Assembly: GCA_930979925.1 (NCBI GenBank)
Contig: CAKNIB010000007.1
Coordinates: 1-64,000, forward strand
Source: an uncultured Clostridia bacterium
Lineage (GTDB): Bacteria; Bacillota; Clostridia; Christensenellales; UBA1242
Reading direction: 5' to 3'
DNA length: 64,000 nucleotides
Of this stretch, positions 51,280-60,094 are shown piece by piece; the stretch's first letter is position 1; each line of letters starts with the position of its first letter. The position numbers and the translations under genes are program-made. The notes beneath the pieces are model-generated. The model saw only the letters and a list, made by a program, of their open reading frames with translations, made no database searches and was not told the origin of the DNA.

Positions 51280-52611
51280 TTACATCTCAAAATCTTTTTT
51301 TTGCTTTTCTTTTTGCTTTTTCCACTCTAAATATTCTTCATCTTCTTTTTCTGCAATTATATTTTTCAACCTTTCTATCTCCTGTTCAAGCTCTTGGGTC
51401 TTGTCAGTTTTTTCTTCCTTTTCTTGAGTTTGAGAAAATGCAAAAACATTTGTCATTGTGTTTGCACTGTTTAATTTTGTAGAATAATCAAGATGTGAAT
51501 AAATGTTTGCGGTGGTGCTGAAATCTGCATGACCAAGCCATTCTTGAATTTGCTTCATAGGAACACCGTTAGATAGCATAATACTCGCACAAGAGTGCCT
51601 TAAATCGTGAAATCTTATCTTCCTTAAATTGTTTCTTCGTAAAATTTTAATAAAGTTTTTTGTCAACCTGTTAGGGAGTATCAATCTTCCAAGATTATCA
51701 ACACAAACATAGTCTAAATAACGGTTATCATAATTTTTCCCAAGCAAAATCTTATTCTTTTCAATTTCATTCTTTTTGTCTAACAGCAATTGTTCTGCTT
51801 GTAGCAAAAGTGGTAATGTGCGGTTGCTTGTTTGATTTTTCAACTTGTCCGAAAGATAGATTTCTCTTTTCCCATCAATCTTCGTTTCCAAAACTTTGTG
51901 CTGAACAGAAATCAATTTATTTTCAAAATCAATTGCATTCCATTTCAAACCTAGCACTTCACTCCGCCTAAAACCATACATAGCAGTAAGCATAATAGGA
52001 AGTTTACATTCGTTATCTTGTATAACCTCAAACAATTTTTCAATCTCTTTAATATCATAAAAACTTGCTTTAAATTTTTCGACTTTTGGTCGTTTGACCT
52101 TGTCGGCAACATTGACTAAAACTAAATCATTTATAAAAGCATATTGCAAACACTCTCTAATCAAGACGTGATATTTTAAAACTGAGTTGCTTGACAGGCC
52201 TCGTGCATATTCGCTTTTATAAAATCCTTCAATGTGATAAGGTTTTAAATCTTTTAGTTTTAATCGCATATTTTTACAATATTTTGAAATATTCTCGGCA
52301 AGTTTGTTATACATATTGATTGTGACAGGCTCAATTGTGTTTTTCTTTATAACAAGAAAGTTTTTCAAGAAATCAACAAACAAAATATCTTCATTTGAAT
52401 TAGGTTCATTATTTAAATTTTGATTTATCTCAAAGGACTTTAAAATCTCTTTCATTTTTTGCTTTGCTTTTGTCTTATTGCCTTTTTCTCTTAATTCTGT
52501 TGAAATCCATTTTTGTTTAGGTTTACCATATTCATCTTTGTAATTCACGACAACATAGTATGTTCCGTGACTGACTTGTAAACTTCCTTTAATCATCAAC
52601 ATTTCCTCCAT
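51280..52611 (-). CDS. Tyrosine-type site-specific integrase
   Basis: MYGFRRSEVLGLKW, HDLRHSCASIMLSNGVPMKQIQEWLGHADFSTTANIYSHL. Confidence 0.93.
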   Translation of the reverse strand: MEEMLMIKGSLQVSHGTYYVVVNYKDEYGKPKQKWISTELREKGNKTKAKQKMKEILKSFEINQNLNNEPNSNEDILFVDFLKNFLVIKKNTIEPVTINMYNKLAENISKYCKNMRLKLKDLKPYHIEGFYKSEYARGLSSNSVLKYHVLIRECLQYAFINDLVLVNVADKVKRPKVEKFKASFYDIKEIEKLFEVIQDNECKLPIMLTAMYGFRRSEVLGLKWNAIDFENKLISVQHKVLETKIDGKREIYLSDKLKNQTSNRTLPLLLQAEQLLLDKKNEIEKNKILLGKNYDNRYLDYVCVDNLGRLILPNRLTKNFIKILRRNNLRKIRFHDLRHSCASIMLSNGVPMKQIQEWLGHADFSTTANIYSHLDYSTKLNSANTMTNVFAFSQTQEKEEKTDKTQELEQEIERLKNIIAEKEDEEYLEWKKQKEKQKKDFEM

Positions 52612-52807
52612 TGTTCAAAAAATCAATAACACTTTGTTTTGGTATCAAAATAAGATTTCCAGATTTAACACTTTTGATTTTGTTAGTGGCAATAAGCTCA
52701 TAGGCGGTATTTCTTCCAATGCCTAACATTTTTTGCAAGTCCTTAACCTTTACAACATCAGCAAAGTTAGTAAAGATATTTTTTGTATTTAAGTTTAATT
52801 CGTTCAT
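52589..52807 (-). CDS. Excisionase / helix-turn-helix DNA-binding protein
   Basis: VVKVKDLQKMLGIGRNTAYELIATNKIKSVKSGNLILIPKQSVIDFL; overlaps integrase. Confidence 0.85.
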   Translation of the reverse strand: MNELNLNTKNIFTNFADVVKVKDLQKMLGIGRNTAYELIATNKIKSVKSGNLILIPKQSVIDFLNNGGNVDD

Positions 52808-52929: not shown

Positions 52930-53175
52930 TGCAGATATGGGCTCCCGAAAAGTTTAGTAAACTTTTTGGGTAAAGGAAAAGTTAACCGTAAGTGGCAAGC
53001 AAATTTTGCTTGCAAAATTTCAAGCCCAAAGGTTGCACTTTGACGTGAAAATGGGTTTTCCCATTTGTCGAGATAAAGGAAGAAAACGAGTCAAAAAATG
53101 TATCATAAGAAAATGCTTGTAAAACAAGTGTTTTCTTAACATTTTTGACCAAAAGCGTTTCTTCCGCTTATCCTG
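52930..53175. other. Palindrome-rich non-coding region, candidate oriT/origin
   Basis: Hairpins CCCgAAAAGTTT/AAACTTTTtGGG (52944-52970), GCAAGCAAA/TTTGCTTGC (52995-53013), AAATGGG/CCCATTT (53049-53066), ~88-nt imperfect hairpin (53078-53165). Confidence 0.5.
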
Positions 53176-53324
53176 TATATCGTCAAAGCAAAATCTGACT
53201 CATTCGAAAACACAAAATTCTTTGTATTTTCTCATTCCAACGATTTGCTTTTCCTCTTCCAAAAAATTCTTGCAAGCAAGTATTTTCGGGAACCCTTTTA
53301 GATATAATTTCGTCATAGCAAACA

Positions 53325-54503
53325 CTACATTTCGTATTCATTTCTTTCTCTATAAGCTTCAAGTTTTTCAAGAAATCTTTGGAATTCCATCATCTCATAT
53401 TGCTCCTGCTGTTTGTAATAATCTAAACAAGAAAACAAATATTCAAGTTGTCTTTTTCGTTGTCGTTTCTTAAAAAATCTATCTCGCTTTGTATGCGTTG
53501 TTGTGCTATCTAAGTTATCTTTAATCTTTCCAATTTCAAGTGCAGTTTGAATTGTTTTGTTGCCAAGCCTTCGCAGTAAATCTTTGTGATAAATCTCTGG
53601 GCCATATTTGTCAGGAATATGTTTGTAGTTTTTGTTTTGCCAAATTTTAAGATTTGAAATTTGAGTTTTGTAGTCAATATATTTCAGCTTCATTTCTTTG
53701 TTTGAATAGATAATGCTTTCTGTCAGTTTATCAACTTCATTTTTCAAAAACTCCATATTTTCACTGTCATAACTTACTCTTCCTGTTTTTGGTATTTGCA
53801 AATACAACTTCAAAAACTTTCTTTTGAGCGACCGTGTCATTTCAAAAATATTAGTGCTTCCATTAATCTCTTCTCTTAAATCTTTTCGCAGTTTGACAAT
53901 CTCGGCAGTCTTGTTTGTGAGTGCTTTTTCAAAGATGATTTTGCTTGTGATTAAAACATCTTTCGCTATCTTTCCAGAGTGATAGGAGAGTGTTTTATTG
54001 TTCTTCATAAACTGTGGCTCTTTCTCGAAGAATGATATGTGGATATGCTTGTTCTCGGTGTTCTCGTGAAGTCCTGCATACCAAACAATATTGTCTTTGT
54101 CAAGTCCTGCACGAGTAAAGAATTTTGGTAATTCTTTCTTTAAAAAGTTATAGGCTTGTTTATAATCTCTACAATATTCATCTCCAAACTCTTCACGAAA
54201 AGAAATCACACAATCCCATATACAACTTTGAGTGTTCCTTAACATTTCCCTTAACTCTTTCTTCTCATCATCATTTAAAAGACCTTTCGCACTAAACATG
54301 CCACAAGACTTCTCGCTGTTACCAACATATTCGGTGTAGTCTTTTGGCACGCTTGTCACACTTCCCGTGTCAACATAACTGACATAGTTATAACTGCCAT
54401 TGCAACTTAAAAATTCACGCTTGCGAATTTTATCTTCCTGCTTTGTGTTGTATTTATCACTTGGCTTGTAATACTTGCAAATAAACACAATGTTATCTGT
54501 CAT
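53325..54503 (-). CDS. MobL-type relaxase
   Basis: IVWYAGLHENTENKHIHISFFEKEP with relaxase-like HxH; next to RHH-like small protein and integrase. Confidence 0.75.
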   Translation of the reverse strand: MTDNIVFICKYYKPSDKYNTKQEDKIRKREFLSCNGSYNYVSYVDTGSVTSVPKDYTEYVGNSEKSCGMFSAKGLLNDDEKKELREMLRNTQSCIWDCVISFREEFGDEYCRDYKQAYNFLKKELPKFFTRAGLDKDNIVWYAGLHENTENKHIHISFFEKEPQFMKNNKTLSYHSGKIAKDVLITSKIIFEKALTNKTAEIVKLRKDLREEINGSTNIFEMTRSLKRKFLKLYLQIPKTGRVSYDSENMEFLKNEVDKLTESIIYSNKEMKLKYIDYKTQISNLKIWQNKNYKHIPDKYGPEIYHKDLLRRLGNKTIQTALEIGKIKDNLDSTTTHTKRDRFFKKRQRKRQLEYLFSCLDYYKQQEQYEMMEFQRFLEKLEAYRERNEYEM

Positions 54504-54730
54504 CTTTTCACGCTCTCATAGATTGCATTAACAACATCTTTGATTTCATCAATTCCTTCCAAAATCTCATCTTCTTTGCTTTCTCTTTCTGCAAATTGCT
54601 TTAAACACGCGTTTAGAAACTCGTTAATTGACTTGTATCGGCTTTTTTGATAAATCTCTTGTAATTTATCGACAAGCTTCAAATCGTGAATTCTGAGCAT
54701 ATTCTCACACTTAATCTTGTCTGACTTCAT
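54500..54730 (-). CDS. Small DNA-binding/mobilisation accessory protein (RHH-like)
   Basis: MLRIHDLKLVDKLQEIYQKSRYKSINEFLNACLKQF; 4-bp overlap with relaxase. Confidence 0.6.
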   Translation of the reverse strand: MKSDKIKCENMLRIHDLKLVDKLQEIYQKSRYKSINEFLNACLKQFAERESKEDEILEGIDEIKDVVNAIYESVKR

Positions 54731-54810
54731 ACTTCCTCCTTTTTAGTTTTAGATTTTGAGTTTAAATTTTAATTTTACATTTCACACCTCCTTTTAAATG
54801 ATTTTACTAT

Positions 54811-54952
54811 TCTCGCGTTATCACCATTTGATAATGCGGAAATAGTTTTCGCAAAGATTTTAGCATTGTCGCTGCACATACATTGTGTGCAGCGGGAAAT
54901 ATTTTTTATTTACTTTAACATTATCGCGGGGACAGCATTTGTCCCTGCGGAA
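54811..54952. repeat. Three ~55-bp-spaced covarying hairpins
   Basis: TCGCGTTATCA-ccat-TTGATAATGCGGAAATA; TCGCTGCACA-tacat-TGTGTGCAGCGGGAAATA; TCGCGGGGACA-gcat-TTGTCCCTGCGGAAAAA. Confidence 0.7.
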
Positions 54953-54994
54953 AAATTTGTTAAGAAAAAATATCTCTGCACCGCAAAGATATTA

Positions 54995-55081
54995 GTCCCT
55001 CTACTTATATAACCACACAAAACTTAAAATCGTCAGGGTATTTTTGGCTATTTTTACAAAAAAAATTTAAAACTTTTACCT
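54995..55081 (+). repeat. Direct repeat copy A flanking VWA/MoxR/DGR cassette
   Basis: GTCCCTCTACTTATATAACCACACAAAACTTAAAATCGTCAGGGTATTTTTGGC...; pairs with 60335-60423. Confidence 0.75.
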
Positions 55082-55180: not shown

Positions 55181-56695
55181 TTATAATGAAAGTTCTGGCT
55201 CTGCCAAATCTCTTTCTGCATTGATCATATTTTGCAAATCTTTTGGATAAACATCAATAACCTTGCCACAGCATGGATGAAAATCCCTATTGCTATATAC
55301 AAGCCAAATAACATTTATTCCTTTTAAATCTTCTTTTGGCATAGTTCCCGGACAAGGCTCGCCGTCTGTGAAAACAATTTTATTTACTTCACGCCTTTTA
55401 GAAAATGAGCGAACTGCTAAGTCCCAATCTTCCGTCCAAGCAGAATTTCCACGTGCTTGTGACGGGATTTTAAAATTGTCAATATCTCTATTAGACTTGA
55501 TTTCGACCATACCCCAAAATCTTTCATTAAAGCAACCAACTTTCAACTTAGACTCTTTAAGAATAGGTTTAAGTTGTCTTAAAAAGGCTTTTACCATTTC
55601 AAGAGAAACTGAGCCAGAAACATCAATCATAACTTCGGTTTCAGCTTCATCTTCAACATCATTTTCTTCAAGTCTGTATGCATAGTTATTTTCTACAATT
55701 GACCTGCGTTGTGACCAAATCGTTTCTGTTTTTTCAACTTCTCGCCTTAAAAGCAATTTCCAATCAAGTATAGGTTTTGCCTGTCCAACATCTCCAAGTT
55801 CAATGTTTCCGCTTTGTGATTTTTTTAATTCCTGTTCTCGCAAACCTTCCATATTTCGTTTTGCACGTTCACGTCTTTCTTGACGATTTTCTTGAAACTC
55901 AGTTTTTTCATCAAATTGCGCCTTATCAAATTCAGGAATTTGAGCATTAGGGTCTAACTTACTATTTTCTGCAACTTGGCTCGACTGTCCATTTTGTTCG
56001 GCTTTGTTCATTTGTTTATTGTCTTGTTTTTTGCTTTCTTCAAATGCTTTTTCCCAAAGGCTGTGGTCATCAGCGAATTGTTCACCACTATCAGTACCTT
56101 GCTCTTGATTATATTGGCTTTTTGGTTGTCCGTCAAAACTATCTTGGCCATTCTTTTCTTGACTTTCTTCGCCACTTTGGGCATTGCCTTGACCGTTTTG
56201 TTTATTTTGTTTTTCGTCACCATTTTGACTTTGATTTTGTTCATTCTTAGATTGCTGTTGCTGCTTGGTTTGTTTTTCTTTTAAAAGTTTATCATAAAAC
56301 TCTTCAGCACTATAATTCAAAGCTTCTGGCATATTGACATATCCATTCTTTATTTTAAATCCATCTCTCTCTAAATTTGCATTGATTATGGCATCAGTTG
56401 CAATATTCCAAAGTTCTTGATCTCGTTGTTGACCGTTTCTATCCATAATTCTATACATGTGCTCAAATTTCACATGCATAAGTTCATGTGCAATGATGAA
56501 AAGTTTGTCATCATCACTTAAACTTGCAAGATAATCGGGGTCGAAATAAATATTTTTTCCGTCAGTTGCTGCAGTATGATATTTTAAATCTGTTCTGTAT
56601 TCCAAATTAGCACCAGCAATTTGTGCACCAAAGCGAGGATACCTTGCAATCATTAATCTTTTGACATCTTGCAAAAGTTTTCTGTCATATTCCAT
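55181..56695 (-). CDS. DUF2201-like putative metallopeptidase with C-terminal VWA-like domain
   Basis: FIIAHELMHVKFEH zinc motif; EVMIDVSGSVSLEMV VWA MIDAS-like; Gln/Asn-rich linker. Confidence 0.8.
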   Translation of the reverse strand: MEYDRKLLQDVKRLMIARYPRFGAQIAGANLEYRTDLKYHTAATDGKNIYFDPDYLASLSDDDKLFIIAHELMHVKFEHMYRIMDRNGQQRDQELWNIATDAIINANLERDGFKIKNGYVNMPEALNYSAEEFYDKLLKEKQTKQQQQSKNEQNQSQNGDEKQNKQNGQGNAQSGEESQEKNGQDSFDGQPKSQYNQEQGTDSGEQFADDHSLWEKAFEESKKQDNKQMNKAEQNGQSSQVAENSKLDPNAQIPEFDKAQFDEKTEFQENRQERRERAKRNMEGLREQELKKSQSGNIELGDVGQAKPILDWKLLLRREVEKTETIWSQRRSIVENNYAYRLEENDVEDEAETEVMIDVSGSVSLEMVKAFLRQLKPILKESKLKVGCFNERFWGMVEIKSNRDIDNFKIPSQARGNSAWTEDWDLAVRSFSKRREVNKIVFTDGEPCPGTMPKEDLKGINVIWLVYSNRDFHPCCGKVIDVYPKDLQNMINAERDLAEPELSL

Positions 56696-56704
56696 AGAGC
56701 ACCC

Positions 56705-57088
56705 CTAAAAAGCCACAACCGCAAAATGATATAGGTCTTGAGATATATTCTTTAAAGTAGACCTATCTTTCACTGTAAAAACTATAATACAATTCTTTGG
56801 AAGATAGTATCCATTTAGTTCTCTATCTTTAACAAGACTAACATATCTATTTTGTTGTTCAGTCGAAATTTCGTCAATTCCTTTAATTACGAAATAACAT
56901 AATTTATTTTTTTTGCATTTTTCATCAATCTTGTCTGCATATGGTGGAATGCTTCCTGTGAGAAGAAATTTGTCGCTCACATTTGCTTTCATAGAAACGA
57001 TTGGAGATAATTTTTCACTATCTATATTTTCAATTACAACACAAGTAGCATTTGAATTGCGCTGTAAATCTATTAATTCTTTTATCAT
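56705..57088 (-). CDS. Small protein of MoxR/VWA operon
   Basis: 127 aa between MoxR-like ATPase and VWA genes; 4-bp overlap with ATPase stop. Confidence 0.6.
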   Translation of the reverse strand: MIKELIDLQRNSNATCVVIENIDSEKLSPIVSMKANVSDKFLLTGSIPPYADKIDEKCKKNKLCYFVIKGIDEISTEQQNRYVSLVKDRELNGYYLPKNCIIVFTVKDRSTLKNISQDLYHFAVVAF

Positions 57089-59403
57089 CTAATCATCCCT
57101 CCTTCATCTTCAAGCTGCATAGCCGAGATTTCTCTTAACTCTGCTATTTTTTCCATACGCTTTTCATCATTACCAGCCCAATAGATGTCGTAGACAGACA
57201 AATATTCTGGATCGCAATGTTTGCGTATAAATTCTCTACAAACGCCAACTTGTTCGGGGGTTGCATTTAGAAGCCCTGCCATAGTTGCGAATTTTTCGTT
57301 AATATCAGTTGGAAGGTCTGCTTGAGTGTATCTCTTTTCAACTATTTCTTCAACGGTAAGGGTAGGGTGATTATAAAAATCAAAAAACTCTTCCGCCCAT
57401 TCTTCACGCAGTTTTGAGCCAATTGAAGCTTTAAGTAGCGCCTCAACATCTTTTCCTACGAATTTACCATTTTTTAAATCTTCTTCAAAGGCATAAAGAG
57501 TTCTTGAAATAGATTCCCAACCACGAGGGTCATTTGTTCTTCCACGGCAACCATTTCGGTCAAGATGATTTTCTCCAACTTCTGGTTCTTCATAGAAATA
57601 TCCCATATCTTCTATTTCTTCACTACGTCGATTTTCTTGATATTTTGAGAAAATATAGCCAATAACAGAAGGGTGTATTTTTGAAGGAATTGCAAACTCG
57701 TATATCCATTCGCCAACTTTTGGTTCCATATCTAAAATGTGGTCAAATCTCTTTTCAAGAGGCTCTGCCAAATCTTCGGCAACATTAGAATATTTTTTCT
57801 GGTTTCCCGTTGCAACCACAACAGTGTTTGCAGGAAGTTTTAGTCCTTTTCCCGTTTCAACAAGTTTGTTAAGAACAAGAGTGTAGACAAGTGATTGAAC
57901 AGCAGGTTTAACGTTCAAAAGTTCATCAAGCATAATAACAACTTTGCCCTTCGCTGTTTTTGAACGCTCGTAAATTGTGTCAGCAAGGTCATAAAGATTT
58001 TGAATGTTCTCTTGAATAAGTTTTCTTTCATCATCTGTTGCACAAGCCATAAGTGCTTGTTTGGCAAAATCTGGCGGAATAGATTGTCCCGTCTGTAAGT
58101 TCATAGAACCCACAACCTTTTCAGGGAACATATTGTTTGTAAGTTTTATATAAATCAAGTCTGGATACAGCTTTTTAATTCTTTCGGTTTTACCAATTCC
58201 AGAAGGACCACGGAGCAAAACAGATTGCCCAGCGTCAATCCAACTTTCAATCATTTCGGTATCGGTCATTCTTCTGCGCTGATTTTGAGGAGTTTTATCT
58301 GGATTCAATTTTTCAAGCCTTGACCTGCGAACTTGTGGCTCAAATGTGAGTTCTTTTTCATCTTCTTGTGTGATAGCGGAAGAAATACTCAAAGAACTAT
58401 CAAGCGCTTCTTGTAGAAATCCTTTACCTTTGAAACAATAATTTTTATCCGATTTATATCTTTTATTTCCGTTTCCCTTACTCAATTCTTCGTGTAAATC
58501 ATAGCCATTAAAAATCGCACGCAATGGACTGTTTTGCCACATTGTATGTTCTGTTTCGCCATATTCTGGATAGAAAGGAATTCCTGACATAATTCCTTCT
58601 TCCGATTTTACATAAATAGTTTTAGCAGTTCCATTTCCATTAGGATTGATAGACCTTGGAAGTTCATCCCAATTTTTTATTTTCCATTTGATTGGTTGAA
58701 CTTCGGCCCACATAGGAGTTCCGTCTTCTGGTGCTTTCGTTTTGTCCTTATATTCAGAGTCATTGTCATATTTTTTTGAAATAACTCGAACATATTTTTT
58801 GCCACCATATTCGAACTCTTGATTTTGCTGGAAACTGCCGTCTTCTTTCATATATCCGGTGTAGGTTTTACCGGTTGGAGTTAATTTATGTGCATTAAAA
58901 AGTCTTTCTAATTCTCCGCTATTTTTTGCTTTATCTTGTGGATAAGAGCCAAATTCAATAGTGTAATATAAAATTTTGCCACTTTTATCCTTAAAAGACT
59001 CAATTTTAAAGTCGCTCGACGCGCTTCGCGCGGAGATTACAGATGAGAGATTAAGGTGTAAAGCTGGACACAGCCCAGCGCTCTTTCTGTCTGCATGTTT
59101 ATAGTCGAGCGAGCCATCACTTCTAACATAGTACACATGACTCCTAGAGTTGGCCGAGCGCAGCCAATACCAAGTCGATTGTCTATCCTTAGGACCTTTT
59201 CTTTCTCCACCAAGGAAGGCCCCATTCATAACAGCGTAATCTGAAGCGTAAACATAACATTTATCTGAATCTATGCCTTTCACTTCATCATAAGTTTCAA
59301 AGAACACAAAATCTTGGGTATCAAACGCAGAGTTGCCTGTTTTTTGATTTTCGTCAGTATTGTCAAGACGTGTTCTTACAATAAAATCTTTTAATTCTGC
59401 CAT
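57085..59403 (-). CDS. MoxR-type AAA ATPase with N-terminal DUF6273/CLec-like (DGR target-type) domain
   Basis: N-term STWYWLRSANSRSHVYYVRSDGSLDYKHADRKSAGLCPALHLNLSS; ATPase RGPSGIGKTERIKK and VVIMLDELLN. Confidence 0.8.
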   Translation of the reverse strand: MAELKDFIVRTRLDNTDENQKTGNSAFDTQDFVFFETYDEVKGIDSDKCYVYASDYAVMNGAFLGGERKGPKDRQSTWYWLRSANSRSHVYYVRSDGSLDYKHADRKSAGLCPALHLNLSSVISARSASSDFKIESFKDKSGKILYYTIEFGSYPQDKAKNSGELERLFNAHKLTPTGKTYTGYMKEDGSFQQNQEFEYGGKKYVRVISKKYDNDSEYKDKTKAPEDGTPMWAEVQPIKWKIKNWDELPRSINPNGNGTAKTIYVKSEEGIMSGIPFYPEYGETEHTMWQNSPLRAIFNGYDLHEELSKGNGNKRYKSDKNYCFKGKGFLQEALDSSLSISSAITQEDEKELTFEPQVRRSRLEKLNPDKTPQNQRRRMTDTEMIESWIDAGQSVLLRGPSGIGKTERIKKLYPDLIYIKLTNNMFPEKVVGSMNLQTGQSIPPDFAKQALMACATDDERKLIQENIQNLYDLADTIYERSKTAKGKVVIMLDELLNVKPAVQSLVYTLVLNKLVETGKGLKLPANTVVVATGNQKKYSNVAEDLAEPLEKRFDHILDMEPKVGEWIYEFAIPSKIHPSVIGYIFSKYQENRRSEEIEDMGYFYEEPEVGENHLDRNGCRGRTNDPRGWESISRTLYAFEEDLKNGKFVGKDVEALLKASIGSKLREEWAEEFFDFYNHPTLTVEEIVEKRYTQADLPTDINEKFATMAGLLNATPEQVGVCREFIRKHCDPEYLSVYDIYWAGNDEKRMEKIAELREISAMQLEDEGGMIR
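59015..59035 (-). promoter_or_regulatory. GC-rich hairpin downstream of variable region
   Basis: Coding strand CTC CGCGC-GAA-GCGCG tc GAG inside an otherwise AT-rich gene. Confidence 0.6.
59050..59172 (-). other. Candidate DGR variable repeat (VR)
   Basis: Encodes WYWLRSAN...GLCPALHLNL; many NNY codons in positions AAY-template DGRs diversify; hairpin follows; DGR-type RT gene adjacent. Confidence 0.55.
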
Positions 59404-59473
59404 ATTTTAACTCCTTTGATGAAACGAGTATAACATAATTTTGTTATAAATGCAATACTAAAGCAATGTAATT

Positions 59474-60094
59474 TTATATTTTGTATTTTGTTCTAAGAGT
59501 TATAAGTAATTTTTTTGAATTTGAATGGCATAAATGCCCCTTAAAGGCATTTAATCTGACATCAATGTATTCTTTATCAACAAGGTTGTTATTGCGTAGT
59601 TTTGACAGTGTTTTCACATTTTTTCTTAACCTTAATTTTGCTTGTCCGCGTAGAAATGTTTTAATTTTACCTTTTTCACAGAGTATATGTCTAAATCCTA
59701 AAAAATCAATTTCGTTTTTAAGCCTGCCAATTTGTGTTTTGCTGTTAAGGGATAAATCAAGTTCTTCCTTTACACATTTTTCGATTTCTTGTTTGCAGAA
59801 TTTAAGATATTCTTTATTGTTATGAACTAAAATCATGTCGTCCATATAGCGAACGTAATACTTTATTCGTAGTTTTTCTTTAATCAATCTATCAACCTTG
59901 TTCAGATAAAATAATGCAAACCATTGGCTTGTTTGATTGCCAATAGGAAGCCCAACTTTTGTGTCATTGTTTTTGCTTTGTAATATGGTGTTTATAAACC
60001 ATAAATCTTCTTCATCAAGTGATGTTTTTGCCAGATTTTTAAGTAAAATTTCGTGATTTATGCTTTGAAAATATTTTTTAATATCACATTTCAA
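59474..60094 (-). pseudogene. DGR-like reverse transcriptase, N-terminally truncated
   Basis: LKCDIKKYFQSINHEIL, GLPIGNQTSQWFALFYLNKVD (DGR IGxxxSQ), YVRYMDDMILVHN, IDFLGFRH; in-frame stop shortly upstream removes RT motifs 1-2. Confidence 0.75.

Follow-up and report, generated by a model that had tools for sequence, protein, structure and literature searches.

The three tandem palindromes that precede the mobilisation genes in the window (the whole stretch of 64,000 nucleotides analysed here, from an uncultured Clostridia bacterium) are best read as three promoters. Computational evidence strongly supports the promoter anatomy of each unit and the matching of such operators with winged-helix regulators encoded by other elements. 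The tandem promoters probably form an OR-gate, through which a satellite responds to whichever helper's regulator is present.

The palindromes at 54813-54842 and 54924-54953 follow exactly the pattern TCGC-N5-CA-NCATT-TG-N5-GCGGAAA, which would be expected 0.00 times by chance in the window, also when three mismatches are allowed. The original prediction described three hairpins with a shared frame. All three are real, but the CA/TG part of the frame is not constant, because the middle copy (about 54869-54898), which otherwise keeps the frame, reads AC-AATGT-AT on the minus strand versus CA-AATGG-TG (or GCTG) in the other two. The G.T wobble noticed at the same position in two copies was confirmed for copies 1 and 3. 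The motif CGCAAAGATWTTAG indeed recurs at 54850-54863 and 54982-54995. The former copy is the reverse complement of the -10/start region of unit 2 and the latter forms an arm of the intrinsic terminator that precedes the array; no common function was seen for the two.

The folding of a 231-nt region is far stronger than that of shuffles on both strands (z = -6.6 and -6.1). The proposed covariation of the stems was borne out in 32 units from close relatives, which align without gaps: 92.8% of the stem cells are paired versus 72% in shuffled units, and the covariation score is 0.494 versus 0.132 (0/500 shuffles). At gathering and relaxed thresholds, Rfam gave only two tRNAs and one weak match, and the palindromes match no known family. 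Caution is needed here, as covarying stems across paralogous sites can reflect the half-site symmetry of a dimer and not nucleic-acid structure.

The features of the locus are listed in Table 1. In the logo of 126 distinct units, an A-tract followed by a T-tract lies at -56 to -47, and the 25-bp inverted repeat extends from -44 to -20. An extended -10 element (TGnTAnnnT) is marked by T-15 in 94%, A-11 in 100% and T-7 in 96% of the units, values biased by the inclusion of the -10 columns in the search model, and a purine occupies +1, a column outside the model, in 96%. The promoters of the regulator genes, found by palindrome search alone and without the model, have the same -10, and its spacing is unchanged except in about one case. 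The units contain no -35 hexamer; the inverted repeat occupies its place. A terminator of unrelated sequence, as judged by eye, precedes nearly every array for which enough sequence is available. In most arrays, the last unit is followed by a conserved strong Shine-Dalgarno sequence and a start codon directly followed by a stop. Directly upstream of the window's terminator, at about 55000-55030 on the minus strand, lies a promoter-like motif, TTATATAAGTAGAGGG, also seen in L002, L003, L005 and L011. It is repeated in some relatives and may make a very short RNA.

Table 1. Features of the array and of the element downstream of it (window positions)
Feature	Position	Strand	Details or basis
Intrinsic terminator, just upstream of array	54963..54993	-	11-bp stem, then T-rich tail
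Promoter unit 1, first in transcription direction	54905..54961	-	A/T tract 54952-54961; operator palindrome 54925-54949, class GGGAC
Unit 1 extended -10 TAAAGT	54912..54917	-	predicted start 54905
Promoter unit 2	54850..54906	-	operator palindrome 54870-54894, class GCACA, no regulator partner found
Unit 2 extended -10 TAAAAT	54857..54862	-	predicted start 54850
Promoter unit 3	54794..54850	-	operator palindrome 54814-54838, class TTATC
Unit 3 -10 TAAAAT	54801..54806	-	predicted start 54794
Shine-Dalgarno AAAAGGAGGTG, then start-stop pair ATG-TAA	54775..54795	-	directly after unit 3
76-aa RHH-like protein gene, first in controlled operon	54500..54730	-	position and reading of the original prediction
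MobL relaxase gene	53325..54503	-	PF18555, E = 2.4e-22
Nic-like motif CGCTTATCCTGT	53165..53176	+	end of inverted-repeat region
Excisionase-like HTH_17 protein gene	52589..52807	-	
Tyrosine integrase gene	51280..52611	-	

Units of this kind also occur singly. In conjugative elements and some phages, one unit lies in front of a gene for a winged-helix (HTH_11) protein of 115-130 aa. The HTH genes examined each have a single unit nearby, or none that the model recognises, within the stretch covered. The gene order in one-unit elements is HTH gene, sigma-region-4-like gene, RHH-like gene, MobL, coupling protein (PF02534) and VirB4-like ATPase. The N-terminal winged helix of the regulator matches PF08279 (E = 3.5e-7); none of the NCBIfam families passed its cut-off. 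The AF2 model of the protein is moderate (pLDDT 76, pTM 0.50); Foldseek listed the winged helices of BirA, MarR-type proteins and DriD, with nothing below E = 1e-3. Searched for in plasmids, the regulator gave no match, and phage records yielded just two distant ones. The second gene of the ICEs L077, L078, L084, L091 and L109 is sigma-region-4-like and matches PRK06930, 'positive control sigma-like factor'. It was considered as the source of the operator-binding protein and dropped, since the helix of the first gene fits the classes.

The variable stem is not continuous: about nine core sequences recur across unrelated arrays. One-unit elements have homologous flanks, yet their stem classes and the recognition-helix residues of their first gene differ. 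For instance, helix SKMTVRRH is found with operator GTGTTC, SRSTVKRH with TGGTTC/TGGGTC, SRKTVVRH with TGGGAC, SKITVHRH with ATTATC and SRITVVRH with TGTATC. In 24 non-redundant regulator-operator pairs, some of them closely related, helix distance was correlated with operator distance when the remainder of the protein was taken into account (partial Mantel r=0.45, p=5e-5, the lowest value that 20,000 permutations can give). Among all columns, residue 36 has the strongest association: K/R occurs mostly with GAC, S/M with TTC or GTC, I/L with ATC and N with CAC. L191 and L091, a close pair, differ in helix and operator interior, yet the stretch of some 80 bp that separates the two features is almost identical. 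In six viral contigs, the same protein heads an apparent early operon (HNH, helicase), each with one palindrome and its own helix, and the helix-class rule also holds there. L233-L238 are phage contigs in which an early operon is headed by the HTH regulator with a single operator. Because the recognition helix tracks the variable stem, the covariation would come from the symmetry of the two half-sites that a dimer contacts, and the stems would fall into about nine specificity classes. The earlier conclusion that covariation implies selection on a hairpin is therefore not supported.

The arrays combine classes with almost no repeats. In 29 distinct multi-unit arrays, a single same-class unit pair was observed versus 31.7 +/- 5.3 expected in shuffles, a contrast inflated by shared ancestry of the arrays, whose unit orders do differ. 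The full 25 bp of individual helper operators recur in several array units, asymmetric variants included. Unit 3 of the window, for instance, is identical over 25 bp to the operator of the ICE regulator L190 (helix SKITVHRH). The mobilizable elements that bear arrays have no regulator of their own. The 36-kb contig CASEEU010000068.1 (L091 and L119) carries both a one-unit ICE of class TGTTC and a three-unit array that includes TGTTC.

The following mechanism is proposed. A winged-helix regulator of about 120 aa would bind the inverted repeat, its double-stranded operator, as a dimer. Bound over the -35 region, the dimer would recruit polymerase to the extended -10 promoter. The variable base pairs of the half-sites would set the class and be read by recognition-helix residues around 36 and 39. 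A mobilizable element that lacks a regulator of its own could, by lining up operators that differ in class, let any one of several helpers switch on the operon of RHH-like protein, MobL, excisionase and integrase, at a time when the transfer apparatus is likely present. Dimer binding, activation as opposed to repression, and mobilization by those helpers are inferred. Against the OR-gate, a search of the window's own genome found no regulator gene, and the classes GCACA and TGACC have no known partner, none having been found for them in viral contigs either.

The minus-strand block downstream of the array encodes the RHH-like protein, MobL, the excisionase-like protein and the tyrosine integrase, contains the nic-like motif and adjoins tRNA-Lys. 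The original prediction of a mobilisation-operon leader was correct. No Pfam or NCBIfam family was reached by the 76-aa RHH-like protein. The element has a relaxase and an integrase but no type IV secretion genes, and in this it resembles an integrative mobilizable element. A direct repeat of the tRNA-Lys end that would place its right end was sought, and no convincing one came to light. Besides this element, the source genome has two more with MobL (94% and 67% identity) as well as a fourth array, L063, that lacks MobL. Elsewhere in the window, a reverse-transcriptase gene (RVT_1, 59474-60094) adjoins a DUF6273 + AAA protein (57085-59403), which is followed by a VWA/metallopeptidase-like protein (55181-56695). 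The RVT_1 neighbourhood (57085-60094) could be a diversity-generating retroelement module.

The main rival to activation is repression. Here, the same operators and regulators are kept, the helpers autorepress their own operon, and arrays are silent only when matching repressors sit on all promoters, as in an immunity or incompatibility device. Operator matching fits this equally well, the operator overlaps the -35 region, a common repressor location, and the regulator gene heads its own operon. Repression is nonetheless unlikely. The loss of any one repressor would switch the satellite on, that is, without helpers, contrary to known integrative mobilizable elements, whose excision depends on helper regulators (PMC5704250). 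The missing -35 hexamer is likewise what is expected of an activator-dependent promoter. For these reasons, activation is preferred.

Two further readings are far less probable. Hairpins of RNA or single-stranded DNA, selected for structure as leader RNA or as hairpin promoters on the transferred strand, would explain the covariation and folding statistics, and the nic-like motif would make the plus strand both transferred and template strand. This is very improbable given that the stems fall into discrete classes which follow the recognition helix of a DNA-binding protein, and given the extended -10 and purine start at a fixed distance after each stem, which also speak against the RNA array proposed earlier. 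The stem mispairs (45 G.T, 35 A.C and 50 other) show no clear wobble preference for one strand, and units are also found in phage early operons. Moreover, the palindrome of one-unit elements lies upstream of the predicted start, so that it need not be transcribed and would act as DNA. RNA-leader, attenuator and single-stranded promoter ideas were accordingly dropped, given the discrete classes and the helix association. Downstream palindromes in an array would still be transcribed from upstream units and hence may have a secondary RNA role.

The location of the array just upstream of the RHH-like gene and mobL would suit ordinary repeats of a relaxosome or oriT to which the element's RHH-like accessory protein binds. 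In pLS20, the founding MobL system, oriT likewise lies upstream of the relaxase gene, and its repeats are bound by two RHH proteins (PMC5313138, PMC5675868). Such a role is scarcely credible for units that exist without RHH or MobL genes (L081, phages), that are missing from many MobL relatives and whose class tracks the HTH helix. No nic-like motif was found within or beside the palindromes; a conserved one, CGCTTATCCTGT, lies about 1.6 kb off, beyond mobL. It ends an imperfect long inverted repeat (window 53059-53180), resembles the MOBP nic consensus and is conserved downstream of mobL in L002, L003, L005, L006, L011, L025, L026 and L079. The inverted repeat is also kept in relatives without palindromes. 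The CGCTTATCCTGT region is more likely the oriT than the array is, and the earlier suggestion of an origin is not supported. Nor is that of relaxase or RHH binding sites: the palindromes are probably protein-binding sites, but RHH/MobL genes follow many of the arrays and not all.

T4 middle promoters combine a MotA box at -30 with an extended -10. The units here similarly have an extended -10 and a putative activator site where the -35 box would be; they differ in the 25-bp inverted repeat and in the HTH_11 winged helix. Like YafY/WYL-type and other HTH_11 (PF08279) regulators, the protein has an N-terminal winged helix, but it measures only about 120 aa and no effector domain was seen. As in pLS20, small accessory genes and repeats precede a MobL-type relaxase gene. 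In contrast to the pLS20 oriT, the repeats would be promoters, and the nic-like motif lies downstream of mobL (PMC5313138, PMC5675868).

Mobilizable islands are a further parallel. SGI1 and other islands are reported to be driven by AcaCD of IncA/C plasmids (PMC4207636, PMC4605294), and MGIVflInd1 by SetCD of SXT (PMC4207636, PMC4605294, PMC5704250). Like these islands as described there, the present elements have no master regulator of their own, and their excision and transfer genes would stand under promoters answering to a helper's regulator. Unlike those islands, whose sites in these accounts answer to one helper regulator type, the array holds several mutually distinct operator classes; the regulator is an unrelated small winged-helix protein and the hosts are gut Clostridia. 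Array and ICE promoters share identical operators, which may or may not go with SGI1-like helper control.

MobL relatives occur in 62/298 genomes of the same family. Close ones have 1 to 6 palindromes upstream in the same frame. The covariance-model search suggested earlier was productive: a model built from the 32 units found units, with covarying stems, in 53/298 family genomes. An order-wide search yielded nothing but weak relatives outside the family. In a pattern scan of 85,462 species, units were essentially confined to gut Clostridia MAGs. Prevotella-type pattern matches (L103, L110) failed the model and are probably due to chance. In viral contigs, only 1 of 63 pattern matches passed the covariance model. 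In total, 50 distinct arrays with 1 to 9 detected units each were collected. Their contexts vary. Some belong to RHH-MobL elements and others to a replication-like gene with excisionase and integrase. L063, L064, L068-L072 and L074 have a large serine recombinase and a 160-aa RHH-like gene, with no relaxase seen nearby. Such serine-recombinase elements often lie beside methyltransferase or other defence-like genes. A literature search that covered few subscription journals yielded no report of such arrays.

That integrative mobilizable elements borrow a helper's master regulator is already known; the element described here seems to have separate promoters for several regulators that are mutually distinct. 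It is fairly likely that satellites of gut Clostridia collect operators of many conjugative elements, and possibly of phages, so that an array records the helpers exploited and a short helix code links operator class to regulator. If this is true, which helper mobilises which satellite would be predictable from sequence. It would also mean that helpers have diversified in specificity, and would provide regulator-operator pairs that form a natural orthogonal set.
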